Source: a virus. Taken from it: DNA of 21,270 nt. The notes under the pieces were generated by a model. It had not been told where the DNA came from and searched no databases. It worked only from the letters and a program-made list of their open reading frames with translations. Shown in pieces: positions 187-17,663 of the stretch; within the stretch, counting starts at the first letter, position 1, and the number at the start of each line of letters is the position of its first letter. The DNA lies in IMG/VR virus record IMGVR_UViG_3300033816_000018, positions 1 to 21,270 of that record. The stretch is one strand, 5' to 3'. The position numbers and the translations under genes are program-made.

Positions 187-194
187 TAAATTTG
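187..194 (+). promoter_or_regulatory. Bacteroidetes-type -7 box upstream of the ERF gene
   Basis: The sequence TAAATTTG matches the Bacteroidetes/Flavobacterium -7 consensus TAnnTTTG exactly and lies 23 bases before the ATG at 218. No clear TTG occurs 17-23 bases upstream, where the region is an A/T run, so only half of the consensus is present. It is the likely promoter of the recombination operon. Confidence 0.5.
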
Positions 195-2188: not shown

Positions 2189-2218
2189 TTGTTTATTTAA
2201 TTTTTTATATTAATTTTG
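2189..2218 (+). promoter_or_regulatory. Full Bacteroidetes-type promoter for the gene at 2242
   Basis: TTG at 2189-2191 (-33 element) is separated by 19 bases from TAATTTTG at 2211-2218, an exact TAnnTTTG -7 box. It lies immediately after a terminator and 23 bases before the ATG at 2242. This is the best promoter in the window and should be read by the host housekeeping sigma. Confidence 0.75.
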
Positions 2219-2607: not shown

Positions 2608-2625
2608 AAAAATAGTATAACTTTG
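2592..2625 (+). promoter_or_regulatory. Second Bacteroidetes-type promoter, before the membrane protein and sigma factor genes
   Basis: TTTG at 2592-2595, inside the end of the preceding gene, is 22 bases from TAACTTTG at 2618-2625, an exact -7 box. The spacing is within the wide range reported for Flavobacterium promoters. The predicted transcript start, around 2630-2633, coincides with the GTG start of the next ORF. Confidence 0.55.
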
Positions 2626-2629
2626 TAGG

Positions 2630-2830
2630 GTGAGACACGCCTTACTTTTACCTTTTTTGATAACCCTATTTATTTTAGATAGGGTTTTTCTTGTTTGTGC
2701 CTTTTGGGTAACAAGTGAAAAGTTTCAAACGTGGGTATATAAAGACGAATTAATATTAGAATCTATACACCGTGTTTTAATATTTTTATCCAGCTTATCA
2801 GTAATACAATTATTTAGTTCACTTTGGTAA
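2630..2830 (+). CDS. Small two-helix membrane protein, unknown function
   Basis: This 66-aa ORF has two hydrophobic segments, roughly residues 3-27 (with a charged DR pair in the middle) and 48-65, separated by a soluble stretch, SEKFQTWVYKDELILES. That is the layout of a small inner-membrane hairpin protein. The start is GTG at 2630, almost on the predicted transcript start, so it would be leaderless or nearly so. Its stop overlaps the TTG start of the sigma-like gene by seven bases. It could be holin-like or an accessory membrane protein. No lysis genes are visible nearby, so I do not name it. Confidence 0.6.
   Translation: MRHALLLPFLITLFILDRVFLVCAFWVTSEKFQTWVYKDELILESIHRVLIFLSSLSVIQLFSSLW
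2662..2689 (+). terminator. Possible intrinsic terminator/attenuator inside the membrane protein gene
   Basis: AACCCTAT (2662-2669) and ATAGGGTT (2679-2686) form a perfect 8-bp stem with a nine-base loop, and T residues continue to 2689. It lies about 30 bases after the predicted start of the promoter at 2592-2625, inside a coding frame. It may attenuate that promoter or be incidental to coding. Confidence 0.35.
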
Positions 2831-3363
2831 ATGAAAAGTTTTTAATAGAACTAAGCAAACACCACAACGACTGGATTAAGATTGTTGGCACTTTTGGCGA
2901 GGAATTTTACGCACAGGATATAGTACAAGAAATGTATTTAAAGATGGCTGTAATAAATAACGTTGAACGGTTCTATTTAAACGGTAAGCTAAATAAAAAC
3001 TTTGTTTGGACTGTATTACGAAATATGACATTTGATTACAAAAAGAGCAAAACACGAATAACAAAAGTAAGCATAACAGAAGCATATCAAATCAAAGACG
3101 AATACTTACCTGAAATACTTGAAGCAAAGAAACGTTTAGAAATAAAAATAAACCACGAGGTTAAACAATGGCACTGGTACGATCAACTATTATTTGATCT
3201 TTACCGAACTTCAGGAATGAGTACACGACAAATAGAAGGTGTTACGGGTATAAGTTTTAAAAGCGTATGGAAAACAATTAAGACTTGCAAAGAACGATTG
3301 AAAGAAAATGTACGGGAAGATTACGAAGATTTTAAGAACCAAGATTACGAATTAATAAAATAA
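2824..3363 (+). CDS. Sigma-70-like (ECF-type) transcription factor, putative late regulator
   Basis: This 179-aa protein has the two-domain layout of small sigma factors. A region-2-like part includes QDIVQEMYLKM (31-41) and NFVWTVLRNMTFDYKKSK (59-76), matching the core-binding and -10-reading helices. A C-terminal HTH follows, GMSTRQIEGVTGISFKSVWKT (131-151), like region 4. ECF factors direct RNA polymerase to alternative promoters. The best in-frame start is TTG 2824, overlapping the upstream stop; the nearby ATG at 2831 is out of frame. Its position just ahead of terminase and virion genes suggests a late-gene activator. A DNA-binding protein of sigma ancestry that no longer binds polymerase is the main alternative. 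Confidence 0.7.
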   Translation: MVNEKFLIELSKHHNDWIKIVGTFGEEFYAQDIVQEMYLKMAVINNVERFYLNGKLNKNFVWTVLRNMTFDYKKSKTRITKVSITEAYQIKDEYLPEILEAKKRLEIKINHEVKQWHWYDQLLFDLYRTSGMSTRQIEGVTGISFKSVWKTIKTCKERLKENVREDYEDFKNQDYELIK

Positions 3364-3366
3364 ATT

Positions 3367-3762
3367 ATGGCACGAAAAAGACGTACAAAAGCTGAAATAT
3401 TAGCAGCACAAAGTGAAGGATTAGGGGACACGGTAGAAAAAGTTTTAGAAGTTACTGGAGTAGCTAAATTAGCGAAATGGGTTTTAGGTGAAGACTGCGG
3501 TTGTGATGAACGAAAAGCAAAGTTAAATTCTTTGTTTCCTTATCGTAAACCTGAATGTTTACTAAAACACGAACACGAATTTTTATCTGAATGGTTTACT
3601 GAAAAGCGTTACAGCATGAAGCCTACCGAACAAAAAAGAATGTTAGAAATTTACAATAGAGTATTTAAAGTAAATATGCAGCCAACAAGCTGCGGTTCTT
3701 GTCTAAGGGATGTAATGAATAAACTTGAAATTTTATACAACAGTTATAAAGAAGAACAATAA
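3367..3762 (+). CDS. Unknown phage protein with N-terminal basic tail and CxC motif
   Basis: This 131-aa protein starts with a basic, possibly nucleic-acid-binding tail (MARKRRTKAEIL), followed by a helical segment and DCGCDERKAKLNSLFP (48-63). A second helical half contains CGSC near residue 111. The two cysteine pairs could bind a metal ion. The start lies four bases after the sigma-like gene, and the end 15 bases before the small terminase, so it belongs to the same transcription unit. The CGCDERK-type motif recurs in short phage proteins of unknown role, in my recollection. A packaging or transcription accessory role is possible from context only. Confidence 0.7.
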   Translation: MARKRRTKAEILAAQSEGLGDTVEKVLEVTGVAKLAKWVLGEDCGCDERKAKLNSLFPYRKPECLLKHEHEFLSEWFTEKRYSMKPTEQKRMLEIYNRVFKVNMQPTSCGSCLRDVMNKLEILYNSYKEEQ

Positions 3763-3777
3763 AAACACGAACTAAAA

Positions 3778-4206
3778 ATGGCAAAAGTAGGTAGACCAAG
3801 AAATTTAGATAGCCCTGAACAACTATACGAACTATTCCTAAGATACAAAGAAGACGTAAAAGCAAATCCAAGAATAAAAAGCGTATTCGGTGGTAAAGAG
3901 TTTGAAGAAAGAGCAGAGCCACTTGAAAGACCTTTAACAATGGAAGGCTTTGAGATATTTTGCTGGCACGAAGTAGGCGAAGTTGAACAGTATTTTAAGA
4001 ACGTAGACAAAAGATACGAGGAATTTATACCTATCTGTTCGCATATACGCAAAGAAATACGTAGAGACCAAATAGAGGGCGGTATGGTAGGACAGTACAA
4101 CCCGAGCATTACACAGCGTTTAAACAACTTGAAAGAACACGTAGAACAAACGAACGTAGAACAACCTTTATTTAAGTTACGTGATAATAACGACGGCAAT
4201 AGATAA
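3778..4206 (+). CDS. terS: Terminase small subunit (gp3-like DNA packaging protein)
   Basis: This 142-aa protein starts AKVGRPRNLDSPEQLYELF, an N-terminal pattern typical of phage small terminases. It continues with RPLTMEGFEIFCWHEVGEVEQ (a helix-turn-helix-like region, about 51-71) and ends its core with SHIRKEIRRDQIEGGMVGQY and NPSITQRLNNLKEH (about 89-121), as in the gp3-type packaging family. Small terminases bind the packaging site on concatemeric DNA and hand it to the large subunit. The gene overlaps the large subunit gene by 26 bases, which fits paired synthesis. The ATG follows an A-rich leader. Confidence 0.85.
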   Translation: MAKVGRPRNLDSPEQLYELFLRYKEDVKANPRIKSVFGGKEFEERAEPLERPLTMEGFEIFCWHEVGEVEQYFKNVDKRYEEFIPICSHIRKEIRRDQIEGGMVGQYNPSITQRLNNLKEHVEQTNVEQPLFKLRDNNDGNR

Positions 4207-5338
4207 AATTGAAGCGTTACAAAAACGAATCAAAATAATTCAAGGCGGTACTTCAGCTGGTAAAACATATTCCGTTTTAGCGGTGTTAATTACAAAAGCC
4301 GCATCCTATGCACGAACTGAAATTAGTATTGTCGCTGAAAGCATCCCTCATTTGCGTAGAGGTGCGCTCAAAGACTTTCTTAAAATCATGAAAGAAAATA
4401 ATAGGTACTTTGACGAACGCTTTAATAAGTCGCTTTTAAGGTACGAATTTTCAAACGGTAGTGTAATGGAATTCTTTAGTGCTGACGATTCAAGCAAATT
4501 AAGGGGTGCAAGGCGTGATATACTTTACATTAACGAATGTAACAACGTAACCTTTGAATCTTATAACGAACTCTCAATACGTACAAAGAAAGAAGTATAT
4601 TTAGACTTTAATCCAGCAAATGAGTTTTGGGTACACAAAGAGCTGAAACACGAACCAGATAGCGACTTCTTAATTTTGACCTATAAGGACAACGAAGCCC
4701 TGGACAATAGTATTGTACAACAAATAGAAAAGAATCGTTTAAAAGCCGAAACAAGCGCATACTGGAGTAACTGGTGGCGTGTGTACGGCTTAGGCGAAAT
4801 AGGAATGCTCGAAGGCGTTATATTTAGTAACTGGAAAACAATTGACACACTACCGAAAGACGCAAAGTTAATAGGTATTGGATTAGACTTTGGATATACG
4901 AATGATCCAACTGCAATTATTGAAGTTTACAATTACAACGGGCAAAGAATATTAAACGAATTGAAGTACCAAACAGGAATGTTAAACAGTGATATTGCAA
5001 AGGAACTACCAAAACACGTACCTGTATATGCTGATTCAAGCGAGCCTAAAAGTATTGAAGAAATAAAGCGCTACGGAATAACAATTAAAGGCGTTACAAA
5101 GGGCAAGGATTCAATTAACTACGGTATTGATGTTATGCAACGCCAAGAATATTTAGTTACTTCTAACAGCGTTAATTTGATTAAAGAGCTACGTGCCTAC
5201 TGTTGGGACACGGATAAACAAGGAACGCGTTTAAACAAACCTATTGATACGAATAATCACGCTATTGACGCTTTACGATACCACGAAATGGAAACGTTAG
5301 GAATGAATTCTAACTACGGCAAGTATCATATTTGGTAA
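4181..5338 (+). CDS. terL: Terminase large subunit (ATPase and nuclease)
   Basis: This 385-aa protein carries the full set of packaging motor motifs: Walker A GGTSAGKT (22-29), Walker B DILYINE (113-119) with catalytic E119, and coupling motif FNPAN (143-147). The RNase H-like nuclease acids follow: D236 in LDFGYTNDP, D285 in YADSSEP and D363 in NHAIDALRY. It pumps DNA into the prohead and cuts it. The length and motif order fit the Terminase_3/XtmB group. The start is GTG 4181, inside the small subunit gene; no later in-frame start precedes Walker A, so this start is needed. A 113-base noncoding gap with a palindrome follows the gene. Confidence 0.95.
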   Translation: MIITTAIDKIEALQKRIKIIQGGTSAGKTYSVLAVLITKAASYARTEISIVAESIPHLRRGALKDFLKIMKENNRYFDERFNKSLLRYEFSNGSVMEFFSADDSSKLRGARRDILYINECNNVTFESYNELSIRTKKEVYLDFNPANEFWVHKELKHEPDSDFLILTYKDNEALDNSIVQQIEKNRLKAETSAYWSNWWRVYGLGEIGMLEGVIFSNWKTIDTLPKDAKLIGIGLDFGYTNDPTAIIEVYNYNGQRILNELKYQTGMLNSDIAKELPKHVPVYADSSEPKSIEEIKRYGITIKGVTKGKDSINYGIDVMQRQEYLVTSNSVNLIKELRAYCWDTDKQGTRLNKPIDTNNHAIDALRYHEMETLGMNSNYGKYHIW

Positions 5339-5389
5339 ATAAATAATAGTTCGCACCCGTTCAAGTATGCAAATAGTGTGAAAATATCT

Positions 5390-5409
5390 TTTTGTTGACG
5401 TTAACAAAA
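5390..5409 (+). promoter_or_regulatory. 20-bp near-perfect palindrome between terL and the tail genes
   Basis: TTTTGTT (5390-5396) and AACAAAA (5403-5409) are exact inverted copies around a six-base centre, GACGTT. The whole 20 bp differs from a perfect palindrome at one symmetric pair. It lies in the only noncoding gap (5339-5451) of the packaging-tail region. It could be an operator, a phage-specific promoter element or a packaging-related site. Confidence 0.4.
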
Positions 5410-5451
5410 TGCTCAAACTACAAAAACACGAATAAAAAGTTAATTAATAAG

Positions 5452-6177
5452 ATGAAAACAGAAATTGTAATACCTACTTCATTAAGTGAAATACCTCTAA
5501 AGAGTTATCAGGAATTTATGAAGGTAGTAGAGAAGTCAAACGACCAAGAATTTATTGGCCAAAAGACGGTTGAAATATTTTGTGGCCTACAAATGAAAGA
5601 CGTAGTAAGGGTAAAATGGAACGACATAAGAGATTTAACAGTACACCTAAATAATATCTTCAAAGAGAAGCCAAAATTTCAAGCTACATTCAAAATAAAG
5701 GGTGTTGAGTTTGGGTTTATTCCTAATCTGGAGGATATGACCTTTGGAGAGTATATTGATTTAGAAAGTAATATATCCAGCGTAGAAACTTTTCACAAAG
5801 CGATGGCTGTAATGTACCGACCAATCACAAAGAAAGTAAAAGATAGGCACGAAATATTTGAATATACGGGTACAGATGAGTTCAGCGAGGTAATGAAGTA
5901 CGCACCTTTAAATGTTGTCTTAGGTGCAACGGTTTTTTTTTCGACTTTAGGAAGCGACTTAGTACAACATACGCTTACCTCTTTGGAGACGGAGATAAAG
6001 AAGAATCCGAAGATAATGACTTTAGCGAAAGAACGCAATTTAATAAAAGATGGGGCTGGTACAATTCAATCTATGCGTTATCTCAGGGAGACGTTACAAA
6101 GTTTGATGAAGTTACCAAGCTGGGAGTTAGAAAATGTCTTACCTACCTCACTTACGAAAGACAAAAAAGAGAAATAG
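5452..6177 (+). CDS. Tail assembly chaperone-like protein, zero-frame product
   Basis: This 241-aa product starts at ATG 5452 (MKTEIVIPTSLSEIPLKSY). An upstream TTG at 5392 is in frame but would add an atypical basic leader across a palindrome, so it is not preferred. The N-terminal 160 residues contain patterns I associate with Bacteroidetes siphophage proteins: FGFIPNLEDMTFGEYIDLE (about 87-105), HKAMAVMYRPI and PLNVVLGATVFF. A run of nine T at 5933-5941 falls right after this segment, and a well formed -1 frame follows. After the T run the zero frame continues for 78 codons, but third-position G+C rises to about 42%, versus about 33% earlier in the gene by hand count. Position between terminase and tape measure fits a tail chaperone. 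Confidence 0.75.
   Translation: MKTEIVIPTSLSEIPLKSYQEFMKVVEKSNDQEFIGQKTVEIFCGLQMKDVVRVKWNDIRDLTVHLNNIFKEKPKFQATFKIKGVEFGFIPNLEDMTFGEYIDLESNISSVETFHKAMAVMYRPITKKVKDRHEIFEYTGTDEFSEVMKYAPLNVVLGATVFFSTLGSDLVQHTLTSLETEIKKNPKIMTLAKERNLIKDGAGTIQSMRYLRETLQSLMKLPSWELENVLPTSLTKDKKEK
5932..5941 (+). other. Likely -1 ribosomal slippery site
   Basis: In the zero frame the bases read GTT TTT TTT TCG, a run of nine T after G. Both tRNAs can re-pair after a one-base backward slip, giving TTC GAC and entering the long -1 frame. U-rich runs of this kind are typical of tail-chaperone frameshifts. Confidence 0.6.
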
Positions 6178-6963: not shown

Positions 6964-7529
6964 TGAGTGAAAGATTAAAAGCATTAGAGAAGTTCCGTGA
7001 TTTGGTAGTAGCTGAGGCAAAAGCCAATTTAAAAAAGATGGGTAAAGATAGCAGCGGTAAATTATCCAGCTCGATTAAAGGCGAAGTAAAAGCAATGCCT
7101 AATTCAATTGGTATTTATTTTGAAATGGAGCCTTACGGTAATTTTCAGGACAAAGGAGTTAAAGGTGCAAATCCAACGGGGCTGCCTTCAAGTTCAAAAA
7201 ACTACGGTAAACAAAACGCACCTAATTCGCCTTATAAATTTGGCAGCGGTTCGGGACCAAAAGGTGGATTAACACGAAGCTTAGATAGTTGGATGGTCCG
7301 CAAAGGAATAGCACCACGAAATGTATCAGGACAGTTTCAAAGTAGAAAAGGATTAAAGTTTATAATAGCACGAAGTATTTACATGACAGGAATCAAACCA
7401 AGTTTGTTTTTTACCAAGCCATTTGAGGCAGCCTACAAAACTTTGCCAGATACGTTAATAGATAAATACGGTTTAGATGCTGAACAGCTATTAGACGAAA
7501 TATTAAGAGAAAATTTAAAGAATAGATAA
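6963..7529 (+). CDS. HK97 gp10-like neck/tail protein
   Basis: This 188-aa protein starts at ATG 6963 in a TAATG overlap; the frame extends 14 codons further upstream, but that would invade the previous gene and lacks an ATG. Features typical of gp10-like proteins are an N-terminal helix (LKALEKFRDLVVAEAKANLKK), YGNFQDKGVKGANP, a basic Gly/Ser loop and a C-terminal helix (PFEAAYKTLPDTLIDKYG). Family members bridge the head completion proteins and the tail tube. The next gene begins within the final base of the stop codon. The length is within the usual range for the family. Confidence 0.65.
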   Translation: MSERLKALEKFRDLVVAEAKANLKKMGKDSSGKLSSSIKGEVKAMPNSIGIYFEMEPYGNFQDKGVKGANPTGLPSSSKNYGKQNAPNSPYKFGSGSGPKGGLTRSLDSWMVRKGIAPRNVSGQFQSRKGLKFIIARSIYMTGIKPSLFFTKPFEAAYKTLPDTLIDKYGLDAEQLLDEILRENLKNR

Positions 7530-11084: not shown

Positions 11085-13426
11085 GAGTAAAAGATAATGC
11101 AAATGAGGTTCAACAACAGTTTGAAAACCTACGTCAACAGATTGCAAAAACAACTCAAGAAGTAGATGAGTTAACACAAGCCTATGGTGAAAACAGTCAA
11201 GAGGTAACAGCGGCTAAAAATAAGCTTACTGAATTAACCACAAGCTACAAAGAGTTAAATAAAAGTGCTACGGATACGGGTGCAACTTTTGCTAATGTTT
11301 ACGGAGAAATACAGCCTTTGACAACACGGATGGGTGAAGCCGAAGATAGGTTATATGAATTAGCGGCAGCTGGTAAAACGGCAAGTAAAGAATACCAAGA
11401 TTTATTACAAACTACTCAAAATTATTTGAGGATTCAACAGTCAGTCGATTTACAAGTGGAAGCGGGTGCTGTTCCAGCTGCTCAAAAGATGACTATGGCG
11501 GTTGGTGGTGTAGCTGGTGCGTTTGGTGTAGCTGAAGGTGCGGCTGCTTTATTTGGCGTTGAAAGTCAAAAGTTACAAGAAACAATGGTAAGGCTACAGG
11601 CTGCAATGACCATTACTCAAGGACTTACTACAATACGTGAAGCGATACCTACTTTTCAAGCAATGGGTGAGGCTGCAAAAAACGCTTTATCAGGAATTAG
11701 AACGGGAGTAGCAGCGACTGGAATAGGTTTATTAGTTGTAGCCGTTGGTACTTTAGTAGCTTATTGGGATGATATTAAATTGGCTGTTACTGGTGTTTCT
11801 AACGAGCAAAAGAAATACATGAAGGAACTTGACAAAGATATTGTTAAGCAAGAGCATAAAGGCGATATGTTAGACGCCCAAGAAAACATATTAAAGCTTC
11901 AAGGTAAATCCGAAAAGGAAATCCTACAAATTAAAATTAAACAGATAGAAGGTGAAATTGAATTAGCTGAAAATAAACTTAAAAATACTAAGGCTAATGC
12001 GAAAATTGAAATTGAAGCTGCTGAAAGGAACATGAATTGGATGAAAACCTATGTACGAATTACTTTAGAAGGTATGTTGTATGTAGTTCGTGCAATTGCT
12101 TTACCTATTGATGCTGTAATTGCAGGCGCTAATACAGTAAGTAAAGCGCTTGGAATAGGTGAAGTAGTAGCTACAAATTTAAACGAATATATAAGTCAAG
12201 GTCTTAATTCGGCTGCTGAATGGACTGCTAAATTATTATTTGATCCTAAAGAAACAAAAGAAAAAAGCGATGCCACTATTCGCGCTCTTGAATTAGGTTT
12301 AGAGCAAATGAAAGGCGAAAAAGCTGGGTTTGAATTAGAAATAAAAGCATTAGAGCAAGGAGGGGCAGCAAGTTCAGTAAGCACAGCGGCTGGAGCAGCA
12401 CAAGAGCAAATTGACATCACACGTCAAATGGAAGAAGAAAAAAACCGTTTGATGGAAGAAGGGCGCGCAAAAGATTTAGATGCGTTACGGATAAAATATA
12501 AATACGAAAAACAAGAAGCTGATAAAAACTTAAAAGAAAATAAATTAAGCAAAGAAAATTACGACAAGTTAATAAAACAACAAGTTGAAAGTTTAGAACT
12601 TGATACCAAAGCTATCAATGACAAGTACGATAAAATAGAAAGGGATGCGCGAGATTTAAAGTTACAAGAACAAATAAAAGCGGAAGATGCTGCATGGTTA
12701 GAATTACAAAAGGCGCGTAACTCACAACGTGAACAAGAATTACTTGATTTACAATTAGCCTACGATGCTAAAATAGAAGCGGCAAATGGTAACGCGGAAG
12801 CTGAAAAAGCAATTACTGAAAGGTTTAATAAAGAATACGCTGCTATAAATAAAAAATATTCAGATGCAGAAGCAGAGGAAAAAAAGAAAAAAGATGAGGA
12901 AGAACTTGCAAGAATACAAGAATTAAACAAGGCTAAATTTCAGTTAGCTTATGACGGTTTATCTTTAGTTTCTGAATTAAGTTCTTTGTTTGGTGAACAA
13001 GATGAAAAGAAAGCAAGGTTAGCATTTCAAGTAGATAAAGCGGCAAAGATTTCGAGTGCTACAATAGCTGGTTATGAAGCAGTTTTAGAAGCATATAAGA
13101 CAGGTCAAAAATCACCATTGACAGTTGCGTTTCCAGCATATCCGTATGTTCAAGCTGGACTCGCTGGCGCATTCGCTGCGGTTAATATTGCAAAGATTGC
13201 AAAAGCTAAATTTCAAGCTTCTGGCGGTGGTGGTTCTATGTCGCCAAGTGGCGGCGGTGGTGCTGGAGGGGGTGCTATGACTGCGAATTTTAACACAATA
13301 GGATCAAGTGGTATTAATCAACTTGCACAATTACAACAAACACCTACACAGGCATACGTAGTAAGTGGTGAAGTAACAAGCGCACAAGCCTTAGACAGAA
13401 ATAGAGTACAAAACGCAACATTATAA
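11057..13426 (+). CDS. Tape measure protein
   Basis: This 789-aa protein has the hallmarks of a tape measure. There is a long N-terminal coiled coil (residues 1-130), a hydrophobic glycine/alanine-rich region (about 145-168), a membrane-type segment GIGLLVVAVGTLVAYW (about 222-237), further coiled coils around 245-330 and 450-650, and a Gly-rich C-terminus (GGGGSMSPSGGGGAGGG). Tape measures set tail length and are ejected into the host envelope with the DNA; 789 residues predict a tail of about 118 nm at 1.5 A per residue. No lysozyme or peptidase motif was seen. The ATG lies inside the small upstream ORF. Gene length and composition make this call firm. Confidence 0.9.
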   Translation: MSETRTLELRVKDNANEVQQQFENLRQQIAKTTQEVDELTQAYGENSQEVTAAKNKLTELTTSYKELNKSATDTGATFANVYGEIQPLTTRMGEAEDRLYELAAAGKTASKEYQDLLQTTQNYLRIQQSVDLQVEAGAVPAAQKMTMAVGGVAGAFGVAEGAAALFGVESQKLQETMVRLQAAMTITQGLTTIREAIPTFQAMGEAAKNALSGIRTGVAATGIGLLVVAVGTLVAYWDDIKLAVTGVSNEQKKYMKELDKDIVKQEHKGDMLDAQENILKLQGKSEKEILQIKIKQIEGEIELAENKLKNTKANAKIEIEAAERNMNWMKTYVRITLEGMLYVVRAIALPIDAVIAGANTVSKALGIGEVVATNLNEYISQGLNSAAEWTAKLLFDPKETKEKSDATIRALELGLEQMKGEKAGFELEIKALEQGGAASSVSTAAGAAQEQIDITRQMEEEKNRLMEEGRAKDLDALRIKYKYEKQEADKNLKENKLSKENYDKLIKQQVESLELDTKAINDKYDKIERDARDLKLQEQIKAEDAAWLELQKARNSQREQELLDLQLAYDAKIEAANGNAEAEKAITERFNKEYAAINKKYSDAEAEEKKKKDEEELARIQELNKAKFQLAYDGLSLVSELSSLFGEQDEKKARLAFQVDKAAKISSATIAGYEAVLEAYKTGQKSPLTVAFPAYPYVQAGLAGAFAAVNIAKIAKAKFQASGGGGSMSPSGGGGAGGGAMTANFNTIGSSGINQLAQLQQTPTQAYVVSGEVTSAQALDRNRVQNATL

Positions 13427-13437
13427 GTTAATGAGAT

Positions 13438-14505: not shown

Positions 14506-14542
14506 AAAAGGAACAATTAAAAAACCAATAAGTTAATAAGCT

Positions 14543-16939: not shown

Positions 16940-16972
16940 AAGGGTGGTGCAAAATACACCACCTTTTTTTTT
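16940..16972 (+). terminator. Intrinsic terminator after the major capsid gene
   Basis: GGTGGTG (16943-16949) and CACCACC (16957-16963) form a perfect 7-bp stem, extended by A-T and G-U pairs to ten, with a seven-base loop and nine T. It ends the capsid transcript and lies just ahead of the tail tube gene. Confidence 0.9.
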
Positions 16973-16995
16973 GTTAAACTTTAAAAAATAATAAA

Positions 16996-17571: not shown

Positions 17572-17597
17572 TTTCCTTCATATACTTGCATACAATT

Positions 17598-17623
17598 AAC
17601 CCTTACTTCGGTAGGGGTTTTTT
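17598..17623 (+). terminator. Intrinsic terminator with UUCG loop after the tail tube gene
   Basis: AACCCTTAC (17598-17606) pairs with GTAGGGGTT (17611-17619), including one G-U pair, around a cUUCGg tetraloop, followed by T to 17623. This is a very stable textbook terminator that isolates the tail tube transcript. Confidence 0.9.
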
Positions 17624-17663
17624 GTTTTACGGTACAAAATCGACCTCTAATCGTTTATAATAT

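Follow-up and report, generated by a model that had tools for sequence, protein, structure and literature searches.

A Predicted ECF-Type Sigma Factor and a Candidate Two-Box Late Promoter in a Group of Bacteroidota Phages

The sigma locus and its neighbourhood

The window, that is, the whole stretch of DNA that was analysed, is a virus record of 21,270 bases that carries on its plus strand, in this order, the ERF, exonuclease, HTH and 2242 genes, a gene for a small membrane protein, a sigma factor gene, g3367, the terminase genes terS and terL and the virion genes (Table 1). The names "major capsid" and "portal" were assigned in the window from gene position and not from family matches; in the isolated Nonlabens phage P12024L, the portal gene is annotated as such. 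One scan of IMG/VR returned 239 relatives (the best 80 of the 239 were kept), and other scans reached down to about 42% identity; in loci of sufficient length, the sigma gene is followed by g3367 and then by the terminase genes, while the genes upstream of sigma, as well as terS, are often exchanged or broken up by inserted genes. Two scans of genome contigs for hosts and prophages yielded no relative.

Table 1. Positions of the genes, boxes and hairpins of the window.
Feature	Position	Strand	Remarks
Host-type box TAAATTTG, early operon (ERF gene)	187-194	+	TAnnTTTG scan
Host-type box TAATTTTG, early gene 2242	2211-2218	+	Present 5' of the gene in 7/7 genomes
Host-type (sigma-A) promoter -7 box TAACTTTG of the sigma operon	2618-2625	+	18/18 dereplicated relatives
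ORF of a small two-segment hydrophobic protein, 66 aa	2630-2830	+	GTG start; overlaps the sigma start codon
RNA hairpin AACCCTAT...ATAGGGTT, then U-run (to 2690)	2662-2686	+	Inside the membrane ORF, 3' of the promoter and 5' of sigma
ECF-type sigma factor, 179 aa	2824-3363	+	TTG start; TIGR02937, AlphaFold model, Foldseek/VIA matches
Domains of the sigma protein			Region 2, ~residues 5-79; linker, 80-91; region 4, ~96-163; conserved acidic tail, 164-179
g3367, conserved neighbour with CxC...CL...CxxC motif	3367-3762	+	Next after sigma in nearly all loci reaching that far
terS, terminase small subunit	3778-4206	+	Pfam GP3_package 1.6e-10; PHROG 606
terL, terminase large subunit	4181-5338	+	Pfam Terminase_3 1.1e-15
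Candidate late promoter P1, ACTACA-N15-AGTTAAT	5416-5444	+	7 nt 5' of ATG 5452
Candidate late promoter P2, GTACA-N15-AGTTAAT	13404-13432	+	5 nt 5' of ATG 13438
Candidate late promoter P3, GGAACA-N15-AGTTAAT	14509-14537	+	5 nt 5' of ATG 14543
Intrinsic terminator, 3' of the major capsid gene	16940-16966	+	Similar hairpin in every genome shown for the gap
Intrinsic terminator, 5' of P4	17598-17619	+	Terminator-like hairpin in the gap of most related genomes
Candidate late promoter P4, GGTACA-N15-CGTTTAT	17630-17658	+	5 nt 5' of ATG 17664; immediately follows the 17598-17619 terminator

The neighbour g3367, with the consensus GLGDTVEKV..TGI...GEDCGCDERK.KLN.LFPY..P.CL...CxxC, lies beside sigma in all clades; its AlphaFold model is poor (pLDDT 68.2), and a role as sigma cofactor is not favoured, since its core also occurs in phages without a sigma match. 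In the terL loci L184, L193, L203 and L214, ParB-like and methyltransferase-like or HNH-like genes (translations read by eye) stand between g3367 and terL, and the terminase small subunit is exchanged. These loci seemed to be without sigma, but the contig starts within or shortly before g3367 in three of the four and genes are inserted before terL in all four, so that a loss is not demonstrated, and they were counted neither as having nor as lacking sigma.

All 18 of the 18 dereplicated relatives retain a TATAACTTTG/TATAAATTTG-like box 4-5 nt 5' of the GTG codon of the membrane ORF, even the two in which the upstream sequence is entirely different. The sigma-A box TAnnTTTG of F. psychrophilum occupies positions -12 to -5 according to PMC9723704, and this placement would put the start site of the sigma operon on the GTG at 2630. 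The TTG start of sigma overlaps the stop of the membrane ORF by 7 nt, and this stop/start overlap is kept in 18 dereplicated relatives, in agreement with the coupling to a small membrane protein described in the initial annotation. Anti-sigma factors are co-transcribed with their sigma and often membrane-bound; the locus has a coupled membrane protein 5' of sigma, for which Pfam and PHROG gave no convincing family match. The window clade has matches to the membrane ORF, as do many, though not all, of the loci of about 60% identity, and no match was found in those of about 45%. Short hydrophobic peptide-like ORFs were seen by eye directly 5' of sigma in L134, L138, L143, L148 and L153, which belong to clades without the membrane protein of the window. 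Additionally, the distant loci L150, L155, L247 and L251 present, 5' of sigma, a classical-looking ECF promoter (AAC-N16-CGTC) together with a TACATTTG box.

The hairpin within the membrane ORF lies in a region (2628-2700) with a z value of -3.1. Among 24 distinct sequences, 99.0% of the cells were paired, with compensatory changes in 2 of the 8 pairs, and the covariation score was above all 500 shuffles, which are uncorrected for relatedness. The U-run is missing in some of the relatives of about 60% identity, and an Rfam search gave no match. As a suggestion only, the hairpin with its U-run (2662-2690) is a candidate attenuator.

The distribution of host-type boxes was evaluated in the window and 18 related contigs, with early and late classes set by gene function and the sigma gene counted as early. 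TAnnTTTG was found at 70 nt or less from the start in 37 of 105 early cases and in 5 of 332 late cases, with about 0.05 expected per case from base composition (derived from the 15.06 expected in the window). No exact TAnnTTTG was present in the gaps 3763-3777, 5339-5451, 16973-16995 and 17572-17663. The initial annotation had described host-type boxes at early genes and none in these late-gene gaps, and the early/late contrast holds over the 19 genomes. An E. coli-type promoter scan was uninformative (75 found vs 67 expected).

Identity and fold of the sigma protein

The sigma ORF contains the motifs QDIVQEMYLKM and LRNMTFDYKKSK. In an alignment of 26 sequences (the window and 25 relatives of 40-90% identity), DIVQEMY was found to be invariant, as expected for the (A)EDxVQExxxK helix of ECF region 2. 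The NCBIfam model TIGR02937, for the ECF sigma superfamily, matched the window protein with an E value of 3.3e-9 and 36.6 bits, below the curated naming cut-off of 42.9 bits, and matched all 26 aligned sequences (E<=0.01), with 1.2e-12 for the best relative. Similarly, PHROG 1740, "RNA polymerase sigma factor", matched the ORF with an E value of 8.4e-4. A Pfam search with the window protein gave no match, and Sigma70_r2 was found in 17 of the 26 aligned sequences. The PDB gave no match when searched with the single sequence and, with the sigma profile, weakly matched SigL (E 0.0018).

The AlphaFold model (pLDDT 81.8, pTM 0.43) presents two helical domains joined by a low-confidence linker at residues 80-91. 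The best PDB matches found by Foldseek were E. coli sigmaE, M. tuberculosis SigL and AlgU, the region-2 structures 2map and 4lup were also among the matches, and the ECF sigma of Cronobacter phage GAP52 was matched at an E value of 1.4e-2, as many sigmas are. Residues 100-168 of the model superpose on the DNA-bound region 4 of sigmaE (2h27) with a Z of 10.2 and an rmsd of 1.9 over 69 residues. The protein has only regions 2 and 4, with a flexible linker, and its length is within the range of about 150-200 aa of ECF factors. The dN/dS values for seven pairs (the window vs 7 relatives) were between 0.045 and 0.20, and the gene is under purifying selection. Judged from these profile matches and the predicted fold, the ORF at 2824-3363 encodes a two-domain ECF-type sigma-70 protein, and the region-2-like motifs and the region-4-like HTH that had been read there by eye are confirmed by TIGR02937 and by the superposition on sigmaE.

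Late activators of the RinA/ArpU type commonly have their gene directly 5' of the small terminase gene. The protein could be read as a DNA-binding activator that aids the host sigma-A holoenzyme instead of replacing its sigma, but regions 2 and 4 are both there, in ECF order, and the late sites described below have no TAnnTTTG box, which makes this reading very improbable.

A two-box motif upstream of late genes

The sequence ACA-N15-[AC]GTTWAW-N5-ATG, referred to here as the late motif, occurs four times in the window, 5' of the genes at 5452, 13438, 14543 and 17664, and recurs 5' of the orthologous genes in relatives. After the terminator 5' of gene 17664, the related genomes present GGACA, GGTACA or AAACA, followed by N15-[AC]GTTWAW-N5-ATG. 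A motif shared by late genes, for which the initial annotation had proposed a search, was found as a two-box element: two copies lie in the gaps 5339-5451 and 17572-17663, and two others elsewhere in the window. Most of the late genes that lie inside operons do not have the late motif, and no late-type site was found 5' of g3367, terS or terL in the window. The classical ECF promoter has a -35 box of the AAC type, and the late boxes, [A/G/T]NACAA and [AC]GTTWAW, are similar to the classical -35 and -10 boxes without being identical with them. The classical pattern AAC-N15..17-CGTC was rejected as the late promoter, its matches being scattered and mostly on the wrong strand.

P1 lies directly downstream of a conserved non-coding block at 5340-5400 (ACCCGTTCAAGTATGCAAATAGTG), 3' of terL in the window clade, and is kept both with the block and with the ORF of about 50 codons that stands there in other clades. 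The block itself was rejected as a promoter, being restricted to the window clade and replaced elsewhere by that ORF.

The pattern ACA-N14..16-[ACT]GTTWA was counted in the 60 nt upstream of genes, in a test that is post hoc since the motif was first spotted by eye in the same data. Matches were found at 42 of 300 late genes (4.6 expected from dinucleotide shuffles) and at 0 of 102 early genes (1.1 expected), and the late matches were concentrated at four gene families (11/18, 10/18, 4/5 and 15/19). Partly independent tests are given only by held-out genes and by other phages, orthologous sites in related genomes not being independent counts. A matrix trained on the gene-17664 sites only, with a threshold at 1% of shuffles, matched the held-out genes at 5452 (10/18), 13438 (8/18), 14543 (4/5) and 14913 (4/18), with at most one match at each of the other late genes and 0 of 102 at early genes; only about half of the sites 5' of other genes pass this single-gene matrix. 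When the start codon was included, the 19 genomes gave 74 coding-strand and 5 opposite-strand matches, with about 12 expected. A matrix without the start codon was unspecific (145 plus-strand and 32 minus-strand matches in the 19 genomes at a threshold of 10.5, many of them inside genes), and the distant relatives G015, G017 and G018 have only two strict-pattern sites. A high-scoring late-promoter-like sequence at 7431-7459, inside the 6963 gene, is retained even by distant relatives that have no suitably spaced start codon, and may reflect coding constraint.

Among isolated phages, a syntenic sigma relative was found only in the Nonlabens phages P12024L and P12024S (genus Inhavirus), whose genes 35 and 33, respectively, are annotated as containing Sigma-70 region 2 and lie 5' of the g3367 homologue, terS and terL. 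The hhalign profile comparison of P12024L gene 35 with the window sigma gave 97.5% and an E value of 8.6e-12, with 28% identity in the alignment. The late motif has 9 coding-strand matches in P12024L (0.65 expected) and none on the other strand. Seven of these end exactly on annotated starts, at 7 of 26 late and 0 of 21 early or middle plus-strand genes, the late class being the analyst's assignment (before 9918 or from 22090 on). The motif was present at 3 of the 3 late plus-strand genes that follow an opposite-strand gene, and at none of the 4 early or middle genes with a gap of more than 100 nt. One match is directly 5' of the g3367 homologue, where the window has no motif. P12024S is nearly identical to P12024L and is not an independent count. 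No sigma homologue was found in the flavobacterial phages Fpv8, 11b and P12002L, and none of the three has the motif on the plus strand, 11b having one match on the other strand; these sigma-less controls are a small, unsystematic set, and the scan of P12002L began after its first 1,899 bases.

The nearly fixed distance between the -10 box and the ATG (5 nt in 55 of 76 cases) would suit a signal for translation initiation, the ACA box then being coincidental. Against this, a second box occurs at a preferred spacing, since among 133 distinct -10/ATG sites ACA was found at N15 in 44 and at N16 in 14 (0-7 at other spacings), and the motif is absent from most operon-internal late genes, though all of them need translation. 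Moreover, it stands where a new transcript must start, namely after the terminator at 17598-17619 and at the three P12024L genes that follow opposite-strand genes. Translation in F. johnsoniae favours A at -3, -6 and about -14 to -11, and not a GTT core (PMC6847099). A translation signal in place of a promoter has a very slight chance of being correct.

The late motif might in principle be recognised by an ECF sigma of the host, in which case the phage sigma would act otherwise, for example by competing for core polymerase so as to shut off host genes. Flavobacteria have several ECF sigmas; F. psychrophilum has seven, and one class of its promoters carries a CGT -10 box (PMC9723704). The motif and the phage sigma nevertheless occur together in the 19 genomes of the family and in Inhavirus, the three flavobacterial phages without a detected sigma have no coding-strand match, and purifying selection acts on the sigma gene, which stays beside the terminase module. 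The promoter of a host ECF sigma was considered a very improbable explanation.

The proposed late switch

The protein encoded at 2824-3363 is very probably a phage ECF-type sigma factor that directs late transcription from the shared two-box motif, and the virus, one of flavobacterium-like bacteria, probably redirects the host RNA polymerase to its particle-building operons. Recognition of the motif by the sigma is suggested by the co-occurrence of the motif and the sigma gene. In the switch as we infer it, which concerns polymerase binding, motif recognition by the phage sigma, timing and leaderless starts, the host polymerase with the host main sigma would transcribe the early genes and also, starting at the TAACTTTG promoter, an operon of the membrane ORF and sigma, probably extending to g3367, terS and terL. 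The phage sigma would then bind the host core polymerase and lead it to the promoters [A/G/T]NACAA-N14-[AC]GTTWAW 5' of 5452, 13438, 14543 and 17664, and the late mRNAs would start on or next to the AUG. With boxes 5-7 nt 5' of the start codon, late mRNAs are probably leaderless, and the analogy with gp47 of Salmonella phage 7-11, whose transcripts start 6-9 bp from the promoter element, likewise places the late starts at or beside the ATG. In F. psychrophilum, only 5.5% of the mRNAs counted were leaderless, according to PMC9723704.

The earlier proposal of a switch to phage late promoters is upheld by the shared motif, its absence from early genes, its tracking of sigma in P12024L and its absence from three phages without a detected sigma. 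It requires revision for the packaging genes, which have no late-type site before them, and for the sigma gene itself, which is under a conserved host-type promoter. The lack of a late-type site 5' of g3367, terS and terL suggests that the packaging genes probably share a transcript with sigma and that the virion genes 3' of terL are the targets of the switch. A wider reading, which is tentative and somewhat short of an even chance, is that the ECF sigma of these Bacteroidota phages yields leaderless late mRNAs, with [AC]GTTWAW-N5-ATG as one fixed promoter/start module bypassing ordinary leader-dependent initiation, the sigma operon being leaderless on its GTG and the attenuator hairpin acting as a timing gate of the late switch.

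The closest functional parallel is SaPh711_gp47 of Salmonella phage 7-11, a phage sigma with region 4 whose holoenzyme with the host core polymerase uses a two-box late promoter, GTAAtg-(16)-aCTA, the early genes having host sigma-70-type promoters, as described in PMC8948821. The arrangement predicted here is of the same kind, but the window differs in promoter sequence, host phylum and genome type, and the gp47 gene is deep in the late cluster. In contrast, phi32_gp36 of E. coli phage phiEco32 was described in the same source with a single-element promoter (tAATGTAtA) and no region 4 homology, and phiEco32 also encodes gp79, an inhibitor of host sigma-70, whereas no such partner was identified for the window sigma. 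No gp36 or gp47 record was among the 7 tblastn matches of the window sigma. As a caution, the promoters of the phage 7-11 sigma were predicted from sequence in PMC4331800, whereas the authors of PMC8948821 report that bioinformatic prediction had failed them and that the promoters were found by experiment. P12024L gene 35 and P12024S gene 33 share with the window a homologous protein, its place and the late motif type, although P12024L has a marine host and a VRR-NUC gene, in place of the membrane ORF, 5' of sigma. The cellular ECF sigmas, such as E. coli sigmaE and M. tuberculosis SigL, share the two-domain fold, and the late motif resembles ECF promoters in its CGT-type -10 box, but the present protein is a phage gene product with a conserved acidic C-terminal tail and no recognised anti-sigma partner. 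The literature search, based on search listings, gave no phage late sigma described in Bacteroidota and listed other phages. The mechanism is known in kind from phage 7-11 gp47, and the family, the host phylum and the promoter appear to be new.

If correct, the proposal would describe how early and late transcription are programmed, down to the exact promoter positions, in a seemingly abundant group of Bacteroidota phages, and would offer a testable case in the isolated Nonlabens phage P12024L and a candidate orthogonal sigma/promoter pair for flavobacteria. It would also raise the question of whether phage late messages are leaderless in what is, to our knowledge, a phylum without Shine-Dalgarno signals.

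As a separate observation on the window, the octamer AACACGAA is its commonest 8-mer, with 18 occurrences on the plus strand and none on the minus strand, against 0.7 expected from base composition (for example at 1338, 3051, 5425, 9280, 13556 and 15408); its copies fall in all three reading frames. Most related contigs also have it commonly and with strand polarity, and P12024L lacks it. The octamer resembles a signal of the Chi type or another polar signal.
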